The notes under the pieces: model-generated
Seen by the model: the letters and a program-made list of their open reading frames with translations, nothing else
Databases searched by the model: none
What the model was told of the DNA's origin: nothing
Assembly (NCBI RefSeq): GCF_018853465.1
Contig: NZ_JABBOU010000068.1
Span: 1 to 59,573, forward strand
Length of the DNA stretch: 59,573 nt
DNA from: Acidithiobacillus montserratensis
GTDB taxonomy: Bacteria > Pseudomonadota > Gammaproteobacteria > Acidithiobacillales > Acidithiobacillaceae
Reading direction: 5' to 3'
In this document: piece by piece, positions 19,117 through 35,142 of the stretch
Numbering within the stretch: the first letter of the stretch is position 1
How the letters are laid out: each line of letters begins with the position of its first letter
Program-made: the position numbers and the translations under genes

Positions 19117-20232
19117 ATGTTGAATTTTGAAAACAGTTTGCGTCCCGAGCCGCTGCGCAGCAGCAGTCTGAATGATTTGCCGGAGTCCTTGCCCGAAGAT
19201 GAAAGCATCCGCTTCGCCCGGGTACGGGCCGAGGACAAGCGCATCATCAACGGCCGCGCCGATGTCAATCAACTGGTGCCATTCAAATATCAGTGGGCCT
19301 GGGACAAGTATCTGGCGGCCTGCGCCAACCACTGGATGCCCCAGGAAATCCAGATGTCCCGGGATATTGCCCTGTGGAAAGATCCCAAAGGTCTCACCGA
19401 AGATGAACGGCGGATCGTCAAGCGCAATCTCGGCTTTTTCGTCACCGCCGACAGTCTCGCCGCCAACAATATTGTGCTGGGCACCTATCGCCACATCACC
19501 GCACCTGAATGCCGGCAATACATGCTCCGTCAGGCCTTTGAAGAAGCCATTCACACCCATGCCTATCAGTACATTGTGGAATCCATTGGTCTGGATGAGG
19601 GAGAGATCTTCAACATGTACCACGAAGTACCGTCGGTACGTGACAAGGACCAGTTTCTCATGCCCTTCATCGATATTTTGGCGGACCCCCACTTCAAGAC
19701 CGGCACTCTGGAAAATGACCAGAAACTGCTGCGTTCCCTGATTGTTTTTGCCGCCATCATGGAAGGTACTTTTTTCTACGTCGGTTTCAGCCAGATTCTG
19801 GCCATGGGTCGGCAGAATAAAATGGTCGGCGCTGCCGAGCAGTATCAGTACATTCTTCGCGACGAATCCATGCACTGCAATTTTGGCCTGGATCTGGCCA
19901 ACCAGATCAAGGCCGAAAACCCGCAGCTCTGGACGGAAGCCTTCCAGCAGGAAATTATCGACCTGATCCGGCGCGGGGTGGAACTGGAATGTGCCTACGC
20001 CGACGACACCATGCCGCGTGGCGTGCTGGGCCTCAATGCCCCGATATTCAAGGATTACGTCAAATTCATCGGTAACCGGCGTCTGGTCCAGCTGGGCCTG
20101 CCCCAACAGTATCCAGGCGTGCAAAATCCCTTCCCCTGGATGAGCGAAATGATGGATCTCAAAAAGGAGAAAAACTTTTTTGAAACCCGGGTGACGGAAT
20201 ATCAAACCGGGGGGGCGCTGAGCTGGGATTGA
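19117..20232 (+). CDS. nrdB: Ribonucleoside-diphosphate reductase, beta subunit
   Basis: Radical-generating subunit (R2) of class I ribonucleotide reductase, 371 residues. Predicted metal ligands are D112, E143, H146, E216, E250 and H253. The radical Tyr is Y150 in EEAIHTHAY. The surrounding blocks ([27 protein letters not shown]) recall the chlamydial R2 group, but that group has Glu and Phe at the D112 and Y150 positions, so this enzyme should use a Tyr radical. The C-terminal tail that docks into NrdA is present. It is co-transcribed with nrdA. Confidence 0.97.
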
Positions 20233-20458
20233 TGCATATAGAAGGCAAAGCCGCCTTGGTGTGATTACTGGGAGCGCGACTGAATCTAGGAGTTTGGACG
20301 GTTTACCGGGAGTTTTCGGACTGTTTTCTATCTGGATAAATTTAAGCTGTCCTAAAAATTTAGGCACCGGCAGATGCATATAAAGAAACAATGCACTGAT
20401 TTTTGGTTCTATTGAATTAGAAAGTAGGGTATGGGTGGACTTTTGCAGTCTAAATTAC
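20233..20458. other. Non-coding stretch before the integron cassettes
   Basis: A+T-rich stretch with no convincing gene. It contains the perfect inverted repeat CCTAAAAATTTAGG (20351-20364) and a 10-base direct repeat GATGCATATA at 20231-20240 and 20373-20382. No attI site or integrase gene is recognised, and no terminator with a U-run after nrdB is clear. Confidence 0.4.
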
Positions 20459-20465
20459 GTTAGGC
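20459..20465 (+). other. Integron core site GTTAGGC at the start of cassette 1
   Basis: The sequence fits the GTTRRRY crossover core. Recombination would occur between G20459 and T20460. It is the exact reverse complement of GCCTAAC at 20745-20751, the matching end of the attC of the same cassette, as expected for one excisable cassette. Confidence 0.6.
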
Positions 20466-20491
20466 TGTGCTTGCAGAATTTGGAGGCTTTC

Positions 20492-20713
20492 GTGGCAAAG
20501 AAGGAAACACCAAACGATCTCCATTGGCAGCACTTGGCTGATGAGCAAGTCAAAAACGAATACACCGCGTTTCTAGCGGCCGAGCAGTTGGAGCGAACGC
20601 CCCACTCAGGACATTTGTTTTCATTGCGCAAAAGAACAAATGGCTACCGGGAGAAAACGGAGCGAGAACTAATATTGCTGGTCGCTGGTGAACTTCCCTA
20701 CATGTATGACTGA
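20492..20713 (+). CDS. Hypothetical protein in integron cassette 1
   Basis: Unrecognised 73-residue, highly charged soluble protein beginning VAKKETPNDLHWQ. No signal peptide or membrane segment is seen. The GTG start at 20492 is favoured because GGAGG lies seven bases upstream and because it falls inside the cassette. An open frame to 20435 would cross the cassette boundary at 20459. The gene fills the space between the core site and attC1, the usual layout of a one-gene cassette. Function unknown. Confidence 0.6.
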   Translation: MAKKETPNDLHWQHLADEQVKNEYTAFLAAEQLERTPHSGHLFSLRKRTNGYREKTERELILLVAGELPYMYD

Positions 20714-20744
20714 ATCAGTTGCTCAACAAGATGTCGCTGGCACA

Positions 20745-20852
20745 GCCTAACAATTCGTTCAAGCCGAGACCGCTTCGCGGCCTCGACGCTGCGTCGGAAA
20801 TTGTCACATCGTCAAGGCCGCAAAGCGGTCCGGCTTAACTCAGGCGTTATCC
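20745..20852 (+). repeat. Integron attC site 1 (long, 108 bases)
   Basis: Begins with the inverse core GCCTAAC and ends at the core GTTATCC (20846-20852). Inside, arms TTCAAGCCG and CGGCTTAA pair, and a second pair (GACCGCTTCGCGGCC / GGCCGCAAAGCGGTC) matches at 14 of 15 positions, so the single strand folds into a long imperfect hairpin. The flanks AACAATTCGTTCAAGCCG and CTTAACTCAGGCGTTA are typical of mobile-integron attC sites. The last six bases belong to the next cassette, which explains the departure from GTTRRRY. Confidence 0.85.
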
Positions 20853-20865
20853 CACAGGGAGAAAT

Positions 20866-21657
20866 ATGAAGCGCTACGAAGAAAGCCTGTTTACAGTTCG
20901 GTTCGTCGGCCCGAAACTCGATACAGTTGGCGTTGGAATTTATGATCTTGGCTTAACACTCGTGGCATTTCAGCGCCTTGTGCACAAGGCTTATTTAGAA
21001 AAAACCGATAACATTCGTAAAGGTGCATTCCCTGATAAGAATCAACGCCAAGAACTTTCTCTACAAATTGGAGAAAGACGCCGCGAATCGGATGCATTTG
21101 GGTTAATACCAATCATTACAAACCCAATGACACTTCAAACCCTAACGTACTGCGCTAACGCCGCATTCAACGGGGTTGTTGGTTATTACTCTGGCAAGGT
21201 CATAGAGCGACTGCGAAACGAAAATGACGAAACAAAAAAACTGTTTATCGGTTCCATTTACTCAGAAGTGACTAACATTGTTGGCCGCATTGACGGTAGG
21301 GCGGCGATTCACGGCATAGAAATAAATGCTCCTTCCTTGCCAAACGCCCAACCTCTTCTATTTGATGAAGCAAAAAAAGAACAAATTAATTCTCTTCGTA
21401 ACGAGTATTTTCTTGGCGAAGTTCAAGAAATTACTGGTGAAGTATTCAAGCTCTACCCAAATAGCGGAATCGTTGCAATTCGAAAATCCAAGAGGGGAAA
21501 ATGCACGGTATTTCTTAAGCCCGACCTATTCGACAAAATTCGATATGCGGAGCCAGGCCAAAACAAAGTGAAGTTCACTGGCCGCCCTCGCTACGCGCTT
21601 GGTGTCGAAACCAAAGCGATAACGGAATTTGAGGCTTATGCAATTGAGTTCGCATAG
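20866..21657 (+). CDS. Uncharacterised 263-residue protein in integron cassette 2
   Basis: I do not recognise this family. It starts 20 bases after the cassette junction with AGGGAG before the ATG. The protein looks soluble overall. An N-terminal beta-rich stretch (FTVRFVGPKLDTVGVGI) leads to a helix (LTLVAFQRLVHKAYL), with a Gly/Tyr-containing hydrophobic stretch near 106-118 and a basic C-terminal part. Codons are visibly more A+T-rich than in the flanking housekeeping genes, consistent with transfer. It ends directly at attC2, so it was mobilised as a single cassette. A role in phage defence or stress would be speculation. Confidence 0.75.
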   Translation: MKRYEESLFTVRFVGPKLDTVGVGIYDLGLTLVAFQRLVHKAYLEKTDNIRKGAFPDKNQRQELSLQIGERRRESDAFGLIPIITNPMTLQTLTYCANAAFNGVVGYYSGKVIERLRNENDETKKLFIGSIYSEVTNIVGRIDGRAAIHGIEINAPSLPNAQPLLFDEAKKEQINSLRNEYFLGEVQEITGEVFKLYPNSGIVAIRKSKRGKCTVFLKPDLFDKIRYAEPGQNKVKFTGRPRYALGVETKAITEFEAYAIEFA

Positions 21658-21700
21658 GGCTAACCCGCCGTTCGAGAGCCGCTTAATTTAGGCGTTGAGC
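21658..21700 (+). repeat. Integron attC site 2 (short, 43 bases)
   Basis: Begins GGCTAAC (one mismatch to RYYYAAC) and ends with a perfect core GTTGAGC (21694-21700). The stop codon of the 263-residue gene lies at its left edge. It keeps TTCGAG and CTTAA half-arms with a very small loop and is shorter than most attC sites. Cassette 2 starts TTATCC and its inverse core should read GGATAAC; the observed site differs at one base, which supports pairing of the two ends. Confidence 0.6.
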
Positions 21701-21778
21701 ATCTAGTTGGACATTTCCCCTTCACTCGGCACCAAACCCGCAGTATAACTTTATAATATCTTTACGGAGACATTAGCC

Positions 21779-22003
21779 ATGGGAAATCAACTCGAATTGC
21801 TCGAAGCCGAAGCCTTGAAACTAACTGCAGGGGAGCGCGCAGCTTTCGCTCAGCTATTGCTCGCTAGTTTCGACGAAGATAACGAGATTGAGGAAGCGTG
21901 GGCCGCCGAAACCGAACGCAGAATTGCTGACATCGAATGTGGGGTATTGCAAGTCATTCCAATTGCTGACGCTCTTGCACAGGTCCGTGCAGCGCTGAAG
22001 TGA
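21779..22003 (+). CDS. Addiction-module antitoxin (TIGR02574-like)
   Basis: 74-residue acidic, helical protein beginning MGNQLELLEAEALKLTAGER and containing AFAQLLLASFDEDNEIEEAW, the pattern of small addiction-module antitoxins paired with RelE/ParE toxins. A GGAG site lies 10 bases before the ATG. A TATAAT at 21752-21757 may be its own -10 box. Its TGA overlaps a GTG start of a toxin reading frame by four bases, the usual arrangement, but that toxin is cut short. It is the first gene of cassette 3. Confidence 0.75.
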   Translation: MGNQLELLEAEALKLTAGERAAFAQLLLASFDEDNEIEEAWAAETERRIADIECGVLQVIPIADALAQVRAALK

Positions 22004-22074
22004 GGCTCGTCGTAACTCCACCGGCGCTCGCCGAACTGCACTGTCAAGATGGCGGTTTTCACTCTTCAAGTTAA
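22000..22074 (+). pseudogene. Truncated RelE/ParE-type toxin
   Basis: A GTG start overlapping the antitoxin stop opens a frame reading [14 protein letters not shown], a typical RelE/ParE N-terminus. After about 14 residues the similarity ends and the frame closes at 22072-22074. A normal toxin has 90-105 residues, so the catalytic part is missing. The break lies near 22041, where the DUF167 remnant begins. Confidence 0.65.
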
Positions 22075-22183
22075 AGTGAAGCCTCGGTCCAAGAGGTCTG
22101 CCTTCATACAGCAGTCGGATGGCTCGTGGATAGCTCAGCTCAAGTCTCCACCCGTGGATGGCAAAGCCAATGCTGAGCTACTG
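22049..22183 (+). pseudogene. DUF167 (YggU-like) protein, 5' remnant
   Basis: The first 45 codons from the ATG at 22049 read [16 protein letters not shown], then [20 protein letters not shown], which is the conserved N-terminal half of the DUF167/YggU family. The similarity then stops; a full protein would have about 90-100 residues. The open frame runs on to 22399 but overlaps the rhodanese gene in another frame and looks random. No ribosome site precedes the ATG. It is probably the product of a deletion that joined it to the toxin fragment. Confidence 0.65.
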
Positions 22184-22201
22184 CATCTCCAGCAGAGCAA
22201 C

Positions 22202-22210
22202 TGCTATAAT
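22202..22210 (+). promoter_or_regulatory. Extended -10 promoter before the rhodanese gene
   Basis: TGCTATAAT provides a perfect -10 (22205-22210) with the TGN extension. The -35 region is poor, as is common for extended -10 promoters. Transcription would start about 50 bases before the rhodanese ATG. Confidence 0.5.
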
Positions 22211-22265
22211 TTGATGATAGCTGGAGCGGCACAATACTTAAAAGCAGCCACAAACGGAGACAAAA

Positions 22266-22733
22266 ATGACCATGACAGCAAACATGACGAGCACCGAAAT
22301 TCTCGAAAAAGCTCACGAACGTGCCCAGGCGGCTGGCAAGCGCCATGCCGGGGATCTGACTCCGGAAGAGGCTCACGCCCTGCTCCGCGACCATCCTGAA
22401 GCCATGCTGGTGGATGTACGTTCCCACCCGGAACTGGATTTTGTCGGCTTCATTGAAGGAAGCAAGCATATTCCCTGGCAAAATTATCCCGGCATGACGC
22501 CCAACCCGGACTTTGACCAACAGATAAAGGAAACGGCCAAGCCAAAGCATCTCCTGCTGCTCTTATGCCGTACCGGAGGGCGTTCCCTGGCGGCTGCCGA
22601 ACATCTGGCCGACTTGGGTTATCAGCACTGCTACAACATTCTGGGGGGTTTTGAGGGCAAGCACGACCCCCAGGGTCAGCGTGGCAAGGTGGAGGGCTGG
22701 AAAGCCAGCGGATTACCCTGGAAGCATAAATAA
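22266..22733 (+). CDS. Rhodanese-like sulfurtransferase
   Basis: Single rhodanese domain, 155 residues, probably cytoplasmic. It transfers sulfane sulfur to a thiol acceptor. The active-site loop is CRTGGRS with the catalytic Cys, preceded by a hydrophobic strand (KHLLLLL). The substrate-strand [20 protein letters not shown] block is the classic rhodanese entry motif. GGAG lies nine bases before the ATG at 22266. It stands alone between the cassette region and the fpg-like gene. In a sulfur oxidiser it could take part in sulfane-sulfur handling, but no hdr or dsr partner is nearby. Confidence 0.9.
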
Positions 22734-31828: not shown

Positions 31829-33508
31829 ATGTTGCTCAGTTTACAGGTGCGCAATTTTGCCCTGATTGACAGTGTCAGTATTGATCTGGAACCCGGCCTG
31901 ACCGTTCTGACCGGCGAAACCGGTGCCGGAAAATCCCTCTTGGTCGATGCCATTGCCCTGCTGCTCGGTGACAAGGGCCACGCAGACAGTATCCGCCACG
32001 GCGCCGAACAGGCCGAAATCAGCGCAGAATATGCTCTGGATCCAGAGCATGAAGCCCGCCACTGGTTGCGTGAACAGGATATGGACAGCGCTGAGGGCAT
32101 CTGTGTGCTGCGCCGGGTCATCCAACGCAATGGTCGCAGCCGCGCCTTCATCAACGGTAGCAGCGTCACCCTCACTCAGCTTCGGGAATTAGGTGAACAT
32201 CTGATCGAGTTGCTGGGTCAGCATGAACACCAGAAACTGCTCCATCCTGACCGGCAACTGGCGCTTCTGGACCGGTTTGCCGGATCCACAGAAATCCTCG
32301 ATCAGGTGGCTGACAGCCATCAGCAGTGGCGGCAACAAGCCCGGCGCTGTGAAGATTTGCGCACGCAGCAAACCCATCAGAACGAGCAGGCCGACTGGCA
32401 ACGCTTTCAATTGCAGGAGCTGGAAGCCGCAGCACTGCAGGAAGAAGAGTGGGACAGCCTGCGCAGTGAAGAACAACGGCTCGGCGCGGTCGAAAAGCTG
32501 CGCGAACATGTGCAGGCCGCCCTGGATCGCCTGGAAGGCGAGGCCTGCCCGGCCAGCCGGGCACTGGCAGAAGCTCAGCGGCATCTCAGTGTAGCCAGTC
32601 AACATGATCAGTACTTGCAGGAAAATGCCGAATTACTGAACGGCGCTCTGATTCAAACCGAAGAAAGTATCGCCAGCCTGCACGCCTATCTCGCCGATCT
32701 GGAAGCGGATCCGGAAAGGCTGGAAAATATTGCTCGCCGCCTGCAACAACTGCAGGATCTGCAGCGCAAGTATCATTGCGACCTGGCGGGTCTGATCGAC
32801 AAACGCAACACCCTGCGCCAGGAACTGCAGGGCAGCGAAGACTTGGAGAGTCAGTTGCGCAGCGCCAAAGAGGCGCTGCTGCAGGCTAAAACCGCTTATA
32901 TCGCGCACAGTCGCGCGCTCAGTTCAGCTCGACAAGCCCAACAGCAGGCTCTGGCAGCAGCCGTGGCCGGGCAGATCCGGCAACTGGGGATGCCCCACGC
33001 CGAAGTGGAATTACGTCTGCAGAGTCATCCCGAAGATGAAAAAATCTGGCGCAGTCATGGCTGGGATCAGGCCGAAATCTGGATTACCGCCAATCCCGGG
33101 CATCCGCCCCAACCCCTGGCTAAAGTGGCTTCCGGGGGGGAACTGTCGCGCATCAGCCTGGCCTTGCAGGTCATTCTCGCAGCACCCGAGCGCATGGACA
33201 CCCTGATTTTTGATGAAGTGGATGTGGGTATTGGTGGAGCGGTGGCCGAACGGGTAGGTCGCCTGCTGCGTCGCCTCGGCACCCGCCAGCAGGTTCTTTG
33301 TGTCACTCATCTGGCCCAGGTCGCGGCCCAGGGCCACCAGCACCTGCACATCGAAAAACAGATTATCGATGGACAGACCCTCAGCAATATCCAGCGCCTG
33401 CCAGAGAGCCAGCGCCAGCTGGAAATCGCCCGCATGCTGGGCGGTATTGATCTCAATGCCGCTGTACGCGAAGCAGCGGCGACACTGTTGGCCAATGTGG
33501 ACGACTAA
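31829..33508 (+). CDS. recN: DNA repair protein RecN
   Basis: SMC-like ATPase for double-strand-break repair and sister-chromatid cohesion, 559 residues. Walker A (GETGAGKSLLVDAI) is near the N-terminus; the ABC signature (KVASGGELSRISLAL) and Walker B (LIFDEVDVGIGG) are near the C-terminus. The middle is a long coiled coil rich in Gln, Glu, Leu and Arg. The start directly follows the nadK stop. No clear LexA box is visible upstream. Confidence 0.96.
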   Translation: MLLSLQVRNFALIDSVSIDLEPGLTVLTGETGAGKSLLVDAIALLLGDKGHADSIRHGAEQAEISAEYALDPEHEARHWLREQDMDSAEGICVLRRVIQRNGRSRAFINGSSVTLTQLRELGEHLIELLGQHEHQKLLHPDRQLALLDRFAGSTEILDQVADSHQQWRQQARRCEDLRTQQTHQNEQADWQRFQLQELEAAALQEEEWDSLRSEEQRLGAVEKLREHVQAALDRLEGEACPASRALAEAQRHLSVASQHDQYLQENAELLNGALIQTEESIASLHAYLADLEADPERLENIARRLQQLQDLQRKYHCDLAGLIDKRNTLRQELQGSEDLESQLRSAKEALLQAKTAYIAHSRALSSARQAQQQALAAAVAGQIRQLGMPHAEVELRLQSHPEDEKIWRSHGWDQAEIWITANPGHPPQPLAKVASGGELSRISLALQVILAAPERMDTLIFDEVDVGIGGAVAERVGRLLRRLGTRQQVLCVTHLAQVAAQGHQHLHIEKQIIDGQTLSNIQRLPESQRQLEIARMLGGIDLNAAVREAAATLLANVDD

Positions 33509-33630
33509 TACCCGGGTCACTACTGCGCGCCTGTAGCCGATCTTCTACACTAGGCCGGAGCACAAGGGTCGCATACACTGACTGGCAAACAGTAGTGAAA
33601 AATGTCAGGGTGCTGGACATGGTGGAGTGA

Positions 33631-35142
33631 ATGGCAACGGATTTCATGGAAAAACTCGGGACAGAACGGGACTCTAGGGCTCCTCAGCACAAAACGCAGG
33701 GTAAGGCCATTTCGATTCCCCGGCGCGTACTGCTTTTTGCCATCCTCATCCTCTTTCTGGTTGCCGGCGTGGTATGGGTAGCCGTCAAGGCTATCCATAC
33801 CCTGGGTAACAGCAGCAACACCCTGGTTACCGTTGGGCTACCGCTGCAAAAGCAATTGCTCGAAATTCATGGAGAGCAACGTCAGGCTGAATTTTATCAG
33901 GATCTGGCCCGCATACTTCCCCATGCCGGCTATGAAAAAACCTTTGCCAAGCTCATTGCCCACGAACAAACGATCTTGCGGACCATCCAGACCAGCGCAA
34001 CGGCCTATCCCGCCCTGAGCAGCGCGCTGGAACAATTGCAAAACAGTCTGAACCATTACGTTCAAAGCGCCGCTACAACTTCCGACTTGGGACATGCTGC
34101 AGCGCCCCAGATCCCAAATACCAAGGCATTGGTTGAAAAAAGTTTTCAGCAAGTGCATCGAGCCATGCAGAACTTGCTGCAACAGCAGGGAGAGGCAGCG
34201 GCAGCAGCCCGCGACCAGGCCGTAGAGCTGCTCTATGCCTTGGTCGCCATTACCGCCCTGCTCAGCCTGTTGATCCCCTGGCGAGTGGCCACTGCATTGA
34301 CCCGACCCCTCCGGGATTTTCGTCTGGCCCTTGAGGACATCGGTGCCGGCAAATTTACTCATGTGGCCAGTGATGGTCCCCAGGAATTGCGGGATCTTGC
34401 CCGCAGCATTGAAAGCATGCAGGCCCGGCTCCGTGAAGAAGAACGCCTGCGCCATCAATTTCTCAGCCAGGTTTCCCATGAACTGAAAACACCCTTGGCT
34501 TCTGCCCGGTCCGGCAGTGAACTGTTGCTCAGCGAGCGCATCGGGCCACTGCTCCCACGGCAGCGCGAGGTCCTCGAAATCGTGGTGCGCCAGGTCAAGG
34601 AATTATACGCGGCCATTCAGGAAATGCTCGATATGCATGCCTTGCAGGCGCAGTCTCTGGAGTTTTCGCCGCAAATGGTTGCCGTGTCCGAAATTCTTGA
34701 TGACCTGCACAAGCGCATGCGGCCATTGACGGAAAAAAAACAGCAAACCCTGCTTTGCAGCAGCAGTAACGACAAGCTGGAGGTTTATGCCGATCCACAA
34801 CGCCTGCGCCAGATTCTCAGCAACCTGGTCAGCAACGCCCACAAATACAGCCCTGCCGGCGGAAAAATCCGTGTCCATGCCATGAGCGATGAGCAGGGCG
34901 TACTGTTCCAGGTGGAAGATGAGGGACCCGGAATTCCCGAAGCTCTGCTGGAGCGGGTATTTGAACGCTTTTATCAAGTGCCGGTCAGTAATAGTCTACC
35001 CAGAGGAACCGGCCTGGGATTAGCCATCACCCGCGAACTGGTGGCCGCCCAGAACGGCTGGATCAGGATTCAGAACCGTTCACAGGGAGGGCTCCAAGCT
35101 GAAATCTGCTTACCATCCTCCGCACAAAAGGCCCCCTATTAA
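33631..35142 (+). CDS. glrK: GlrK/QseE-type sensor histidine kinase
   Basis: Membrane sensor of a two-component system, 503 residues. Transmembrane helices at about 31-53 and 199-216 enclose a helical, Gln-rich periplasmic domain. A HAMP linker follows, then HisKA with phospho-acceptor H283 (VSHELKTPLAS) and the HATPase domain (N402 in LVSNAHKYSP, then EDEGPGIP and GTGLGLAITREL). The gene order kinase, lipoprotein, sigma54 regulator matches glrK-qseG-glrR of enterobacteria. The stop overlaps the next ATG (TAATG). The stimulus is unknown. Confidence 0.88.
   Translation: MATDFMEKLGTERDSRAPQHKTQGKAISIPRRVLLFAILILFLVAGVVWVAVKAIHTLGNSSNTLVTVGLPLQKQLLEIHGEQRQAEFYQDLARILPHAGYEKTFAKLIAHEQTILRTIQTSATAYPALSSALEQLQNSLNHYVQSAATTSDLGHAAAPQIPNTKALVEKSFQQVHRAMQNLLQQQGEAAAAARDQAVELLYALVAITALLSLLIPWRVATALTRPLRDFRLALEDIGAGKFTHVASDGPQELRDLARSIESMQARLREEERLRHQFLSQVSHELKTPLASARSGSELLLSERIGPLLPRQREVLEIVVRQVKELYAAIQEMLDMHALQAQSLEFSPQMVAVSEILDDLHKRMRPLTEKKQQTLLCSSSNDKLEVYADPQRLRQILSNLVSNAHKYSPAGGKIRVHAMSDEQGVLFQVEDEGPGIPEALLERVFERFYQVPVSNSLPRGTGLGLAITRELVAAQNGWIRIQNRSQGGLQAEICLPSSAQKAPY

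Follow-up and report, generated by a model that had tools for sequence, protein, structure and literature searches.

How does a small group of integron cassettes come to stand in a genome without an integrase beside it? We asked this of a cluster on a 59,573-nt stretch of Acidithiobacillus montserratensis DNA (NZ_JABBOU010000068.1, positions 1 to 59,573; henceforth the window). It is flanked on one side by nrdB (19117-20232) and on the other by a rhodanese gene (22266-22733), after which comes a mutM-like gene. A preliminary description had correctly placed the cluster between these two genes and had offered two origins for it, namely insertion by an integrase acting in trans or descent from an integron since lost. 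Our analysis of the cassettes, of the DNA that precedes them and of 16 further genomes of the genus leads us to conclude that the cluster is very probably an eroded resident integron of the genus, consisting of an intI stub, an attI and two to three captured genes.

Cassettes and attC sites

To locate attC sites we used a covariance model of our own in place of IntegronFinder's (R1, built from 21 attC sites in the arrays of three congeners, G001, G003 and G007, none of them from the window), which was run on the window with filters off; it replaced a simple pattern finder that had missed attC1 while giving many matches on both strands. With this model, the long hairpin that had been read as an attC was found exactly where it was described: attC1 (20745-20852, forward strand, 108 bp) scored 41.7 bits (E 3.7e-7 over the window and 1.8e-5 over the A. 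montserratensis genome), and its bottom strand folds at -37.2 kcal/mol (z -8.60 against shuffles; top strand z -5.99). The second, short attC (attC2; 21658-21700, forward strand, 43 bp) is weaker. Its 23.6 bits correspond to E 0.0041 over the window, in agreement with the earlier claim, but to E 0.198 over the genome, and its fold is no more stable than those of shuffled sequences (z +1.09 bottom, +0.82 top). Given the genome-scale value, support for attC2 is mostly positional: the junction is plausible in that homology between the following cassette and relatives starts at or near its core. In the genome-scale searches the best 150 of 1298 first-look candidates were scored for A. montserratensis and 150 candidates for each genome of the genus, making all attC counts lower bounds; at the gathering threshold, the only Rfam match in the window was a tRNA. 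The cluster had been labelled CALIN-type. Under the customary definition, which asks for attC sites with no intI close by, that label is correct, with the reservation that of the two attC which IntegronFinder 2 demands as its default minimum one is strong (attC1) and the other (attC2) stands at E 0.0041 over the window but at 0.198 over the genome.

As in a complete integron, the attC-bearing cassettes all point in one direction. Cassette 1 (20460-20846, forward strand) extends between the recombination points of the attI core and the attC1 end, and cassette 2 (20847-21694, forward strand) between the attC1 and attC2 ends. By reading, the start of cassette 1, GTTAGGC, is the exact complement of its R'' box, GCCTAAC, and cassette 2 shows one mismatch, both as first described. 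The cassette 1 ORF (20492-20713, forward strand; 73 aa, GTG start) has no known family above cut-off and three listed homologues, 63-96% identical. The cassette 2 ORF (20866-21657, forward strand; 263 aa) has 41 homologues, 15 of which are 72-95% identical over 89-100% of the query, and it too belongs to no known family: up to E 0.1 it matched nothing in Pfam, PADLOC or PHROGs, and its single NCBIfam match was far below cut-off. When its predicted model (pLDDT 90.7) was compared with the PDB, nothing matched at E<=0.001; the best-ranked structures were partial matches, many of them OB-fold proteins. Scanning genome contigs for this family yielded five relatives, 41-49% identical, with no convincing attC neighbours (a single 12.7-bit match); in plasmids the family had no match. 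When every first-look candidate was scored, neither cassette was found in any of the 16 congeners, where the sole matches to either were attC1 pieces of 30-37 bp in G001, G003 and G015. This runs against the possibility, raised at the outset, that the cassettes are a fixed part of the locus.

The two cassettes first reported are followed by a third that had been overlooked, which we recognised by homology in relatives. Cassette 3 (21695-22041, forward strand) has its 3' end cut off and carries no attC. Four relatives (G001, G002, G013 and G014) contain DNA that is 92-95% identical to it, starting near the core GTT and ending near 22041, and G005 matches part of it at 93%. The homology begins at the core or within a few bases of it in G002 and G014, with GATTGGG and not GTTGGG aligned before the shared part in G014. 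Against G013 the BLAST match starts 20 bp later owing to a small gap, the core being present in the alignment; against G001 its start is shifted 13 bp the other way by the similarity of the attC ends. Cassette 3 contains the antitoxin-like gene of a toxin-antitoxin pair (21779-22003, forward strand; PF09720, Pfam E 1.2e-11; TIGR02574, NCBIfam E 2.6e-8), and by reading the homology of the partner gene directly 3' of it stops after about 14 codons. Right after the cut lies an N-terminal fragment of a DUF167/YggU gene (22049-22180); the stretch 22030-22270 had no DNA match in the 16 other genomes.

Since the rhodanese-mutM stretch is 74-81% identical in the same genomes in which cassette 3 is 92-95% identical, this cassette has moved between species. 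The occurrence elsewhere of a protein 95% identical to that of cassette 2 suggests that this cassette may have moved as well.

The head of the cluster and its counterparts in the genus

The window had been described as containing neither intI nor attI. There is indeed no intI gene, but the DNA between nrdB and cassette 1 carries both an attI and the first codons of an integrase. The intI remnant (20270-20331, reverse strand; 62 bp), recognised by DNA homology to the 5' ends of relatives' intI and by its translation, amounts to about 20 N-terminal codons. Alignment places it in the intI reading frame, with the former start codon now ATA and a translation that reads IENSPKTPGKPSKLLDSV where the relatives' intI have MENSQATPSTPPRLLDQV. 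The rest of intI, which a complete integron would have beside attI, is absent at this locus. In the alignment the homology carries on from the stub into the intergenic leader between intI and attI (20332-20448, no strand assigned), which is homologous to lineage-A leaders: in global alignments of 20269-20465 with 10 such leaders, identity was 66-71% and z 12.4-16.1 against 200 letter shuffles, and three leaders of a related type gave z 3.5, 7.0 and 5.2 by the same procedure. BLAST pieces between 20270-20465 and the relatives' intI-start/attI regions reached 67.5% over 197 bp and 71.6-73.9% over 70-97 bp. By homology the leader would hold the promoter of intI and presumably one that serves the cassettes too; no sigma-70-like match was found in it.

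The leader is followed by 20449-20465 (forward strand), which by homology to the relatives' sites is an attI, as a complete integron would have. It reads TCTAAATTACGTT followed by AGGC, and its core GTTAGGC, already noticed in the preliminary description, is intact at 20459-20465. Allowing up to two mismatches, the pattern TTCGTTCAAGCCGA matched 21 times in the A. montserratensis genome and 14 times in the control, and the copy in the window was the sole exact one.

The site is one of a series. Across the 17 genomes of the genus set (A. montserratensis included), the exact 13-base attI core TCTAAATTAYGTT occurred in 14 places in 11 genomes, and its reversed control in none of the 17. At 11 of the 14 cores an attC of at least 20 bits lay within 1.5 kb downstream; two others were about 100 bp from a contig end and one had an attC 2.8 kb away. 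The state of intI beside each core was determined by tblastn, the queries being one integrase of lineage A and that of lineage B (the latter is discussed below). Same-lineage intI was full-length at five cores (G002:C23, G003, G011, G013 and G015), broken at four (G005, listed with 7% contamination, G007 and twice in G016) and missing at five (G002:C11, G004:C31, G008:C264, G000:C70 and the window, whose stub is visible at the DNA level only). The genus thus offers a graded series of sites with the same attI core, from full intI through broken genes and a stub to none, and on these counts the window would represent a late stage of recurrent integrase loss. In the window, in G008 and in one of the G016 leaders, the intI ends fall within a few codons of each other, but the flanks differ, and we do not claim a common point of deletion.

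At G002:C11 the leader is adjoined by a different type of tyrosine recombinase (PF00589), which shares 38% identity with IntI over 53 residues. A related leader, AATTTAGGCGATGTGGGTAG...CTAAATTACGTT, occurs without an adjoining integron integrase at different loci in G002, G004 and G013 (L139:4526-4656, L140:4709-4825, L141:4988-5039, L142:4141-4190 and L150:1924-1972). It is followed by attC matches at L139, L140, L141 and L150 and ends at the contig end at L142, and at L140 it is adjoined by a PF00589 recombinase of the other kind. In G016 (L147:860-1135), an attC-like end (GGCGTTAGAG) is followed at once by an attI leader whose core is worn, as if this leader were inside an array.

Comparison of the locus itself gave a less uniform picture. 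By alignment, G010 has a worn stub and an attI-like core 3' of nrdB (one mismatch in 13), which would support decay, and no stub or attI was found in the 330 bp 3' of nrdB in G001, G009, G015 or G016; the G006 contig ends too soon for this comparison. Since G001, G015, G016 and G009 are among the closest by nrdB, the history of the locus is not one of simple shared loss. Among the 13-17 candidates scored per genome, nrdB and the rhodanese gene lay at most 15 kb apart on one contig in three of the 16 relatives (G001, G015 and G016), with other ORFs in the interval, and attC matches were found upstream of the rhodanese gene in G015, G016 and G010. An empty nrdB-rhodanese site, proposed earlier as a check, was seen in none of the relatives compared.

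Taken together, the remnant of intI and the attI are homologous to the integrons of relatives, and by that homology the cluster is a decayed resident integron, possibly a sedentary chromosomal one: its neighbours are nrdB, the rhodanese gene and the mutM-like gene, but the best PLSDB matches to nrdB, at 81% identity, are on Acidithiobacillus caldus plasmids. From nrdB toward the rhodanese gene, its original order would have been intI (in reverse), leader, attI and cassette array, the cassettes having been captured at attI by the cognate integrase before that integrase was lost. A deletion toward nrdB would then have taken all of intI but the 20 or so codons of the stub, which came to lie near the 3' end of nrdB; the array would have been cut within cassette 3 by a separate, second event. 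The cassette genes may still be read from the leader. Against this reading we count the small size of the stub (62 bp), the short and weak attC2, the lack of a promoter-like match in the leader, the four genomes with closely related nrdB but neither stub nor attI, and the mismatch in the G010 core. Of the two origins first offered, the attI and the 20-codon stub decide for a lost integron as that of the site.

A second integrase lineage and alternative origins

A genome-wide search for intI, suggested in the preliminary description, returned 15 matches to TIGR02249, all on contigs other than that of the window, where there was no match at E<=0.001. One integron integrase exceeds the TIGR02249 cut-off and is split by the assembly into C171:3-794 (343.8 bits, positions 1-264) and C146:41313-41579 (positions 227-315); the ends of these contigs share exactly 116 bp, the integrase is free of stops and an enolase gene adjoins it on C146. 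The other 13 matches score lower and are taken to be other tyrosine recombinases. It follows that the absence of an integrase is true of the window, not of the genome. The integrase belongs to another lineage (B): over 264 residues its identity to the full-length integrases of lineage A is 55.7-56.8%. In G009 it has a relative that is broken into two pieces, 88.6% and 93.9% identical. Comparison with G009 DNA indicates that the lineage-B attI core ends in GTGCAGTACAATTTACGTT; by reading, 15 of 19 bases are as in the attI of the window. The gene after the lineage-B attI on C171 (L010:1204-2888) is split between two overlapping reading frames and is AIPR-like, with a weak MzaE match (E 4.5e-5, far below cut-off). 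At C150:4694-6799 several matches to tyrosine recombinases follow one another on the same strand, possibly as a recombinase trio.

The genome also holds other cassettes without an adjoining integrase. A second integrase-less attI platform (C70, about 33269-34137; L114:2270-3138) has a leader with an exact TCTAAATTACGTT, one glutathione-transferase-like cassette and one weak attC (20.9 bits); its neighbours are a gene of the FUR family and one for a penicillin-binding transpeptidase. Matches to these flanks are separated by 57-78 bp in G001, G006, G010 and G015, by 0.9 kb in G016 and by 2.8 kb in G009, which has a different cassette, starting GTTAGCG, at the same left flank. On C9 (2640-5400; L115), an integrase-less cassette cluster with at least three attC (48.5, 42.4 and 24.8 bits) lies beside ssb and uvrA, and a single attC match (28.2 bits) was listed on C45.

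The presence of a second integrase lends itself to an alternative that we consider possible but rather unlikely, namely that the attI of the window is a living platform lacking an integrase of its own, in and out of which the lineage-B integrase beside enolase moves cassettes in trans. The stop-free state of that integrase, the likeness of its attI to that of the window and the movement of cassettes between species (the contrast between cassette 3 and the rhodanese-mutM stretch) all speak for it. So does the 15-base attI stretch, whose conservation exceeds that of the remaining leader DNA in nine of nine integrase-less leaders compared (P 0.011 to 0.33 each), in tests that are weak and not independent, with two leaders found via the motif and G013:C120 left out. 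On the other side, integrases usually favour their own attI, the array in the window is short and cut, and G004 has integrase-less attI leaders and at least 15 attC but no intI match at E<=1e-30, meaning that such leaders persist also where no integrase is found. On the reading of an eroded integron, the array would now be static unless the second, different integrase can use the attI and attC of the window; with this integrase in the genome, the cassettes themselves may have arrived by action in trans.

A broader version, in which integrase-less attI leaders are dispersed satellite platforms served by one integrase of the same genome (here that of lineage B) and the leader itself is mobile, seems to us less probable again. 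Its pointers are the sites on C144 and C70 in the A. montserratensis genome, the related leaders, which G002 and G004 have at several loci and G013 at the end of a contig, the closely spaced C70 flanks in four relatives and the G016 leader that follows an attC-like end; the G004 leaders without an intI match and the PF00589 recombinase beside the leader at G002:C11 argue against it. A further alternative is that an integrase acting in trans used an attG-like secondary site that resembles attI by coincidence. This would accord with the cassettes on C9 that have no adjoining intI, but we reject it as very improbable: the insertion point is the attI of the genus, the stretch of nearly 200 bp up to and including the core shows homology to the intI-attI leaders of 10 sites, which in our view amounts to a refutation, and the reversed motif is absent from all 17 genomes. 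That the hairpins and cores arose by chance or belong to some other repeat is least credible of all and is rejected on the E value and folding of attC1 and on the start of cassette 3 homology at or near the core, even if attC2 alone falls short at genome scale and folds poorly.

Relation to known systems

In the open-access literature searched (subscription papers being mostly outside its scope), we found no apparent integron study on Acidithiobacillus attC and no description of this locus, of an attI heading such a cluster in the genus or of its coexistence with a second integrase lineage. Integron integrases have been listed for the genus in work on Acidithiobacillus ferrooxidans IO-2C (PMC6736930), in a passage that describes no attI, attC or decay.

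With its attC sites, same-direction cassette genes and lack of a nearby intI, the cluster resembles a CALIN, and according to one proposal CALINs are degraded integrons (PMC9024848). It differs from CALINs as usually seen in that the head of the cluster, an attI and an intI remnant, is visible. Such a head would normally escape notice, since IntegronFinder detects attI only in class 1 integrons, according to the same source. Here the genus-specific attI motif lets the origin of an integrase-less cassette cluster be read directly rather than guessed.

Loss of intI with retention of cassettes is already known. The Treponema phagedenis integron remnant likewise has attC and cassettes without intI (PMC3607928); intI in Treponema integrons reads toward attI, unlike the stub described here, which reads away from it as in typical integrons. 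In Xanthomonas, according to PMC12444791, integrons at ilvD lost intI via frameshifts, stops and large deletions while their cassettes stayed, and the A. montserratensis cluster is similar in having an ancestral integron, a lost intI and cassettes left behind. It departs from the Xanthomonas case in that the genome also carries a second integrase lineage and a second integrase-less attI platform (C70). Such an orphan attI alongside an integrase of foreign lineage in one genome is less usual, and it makes action in trans on an orphan attI testable.
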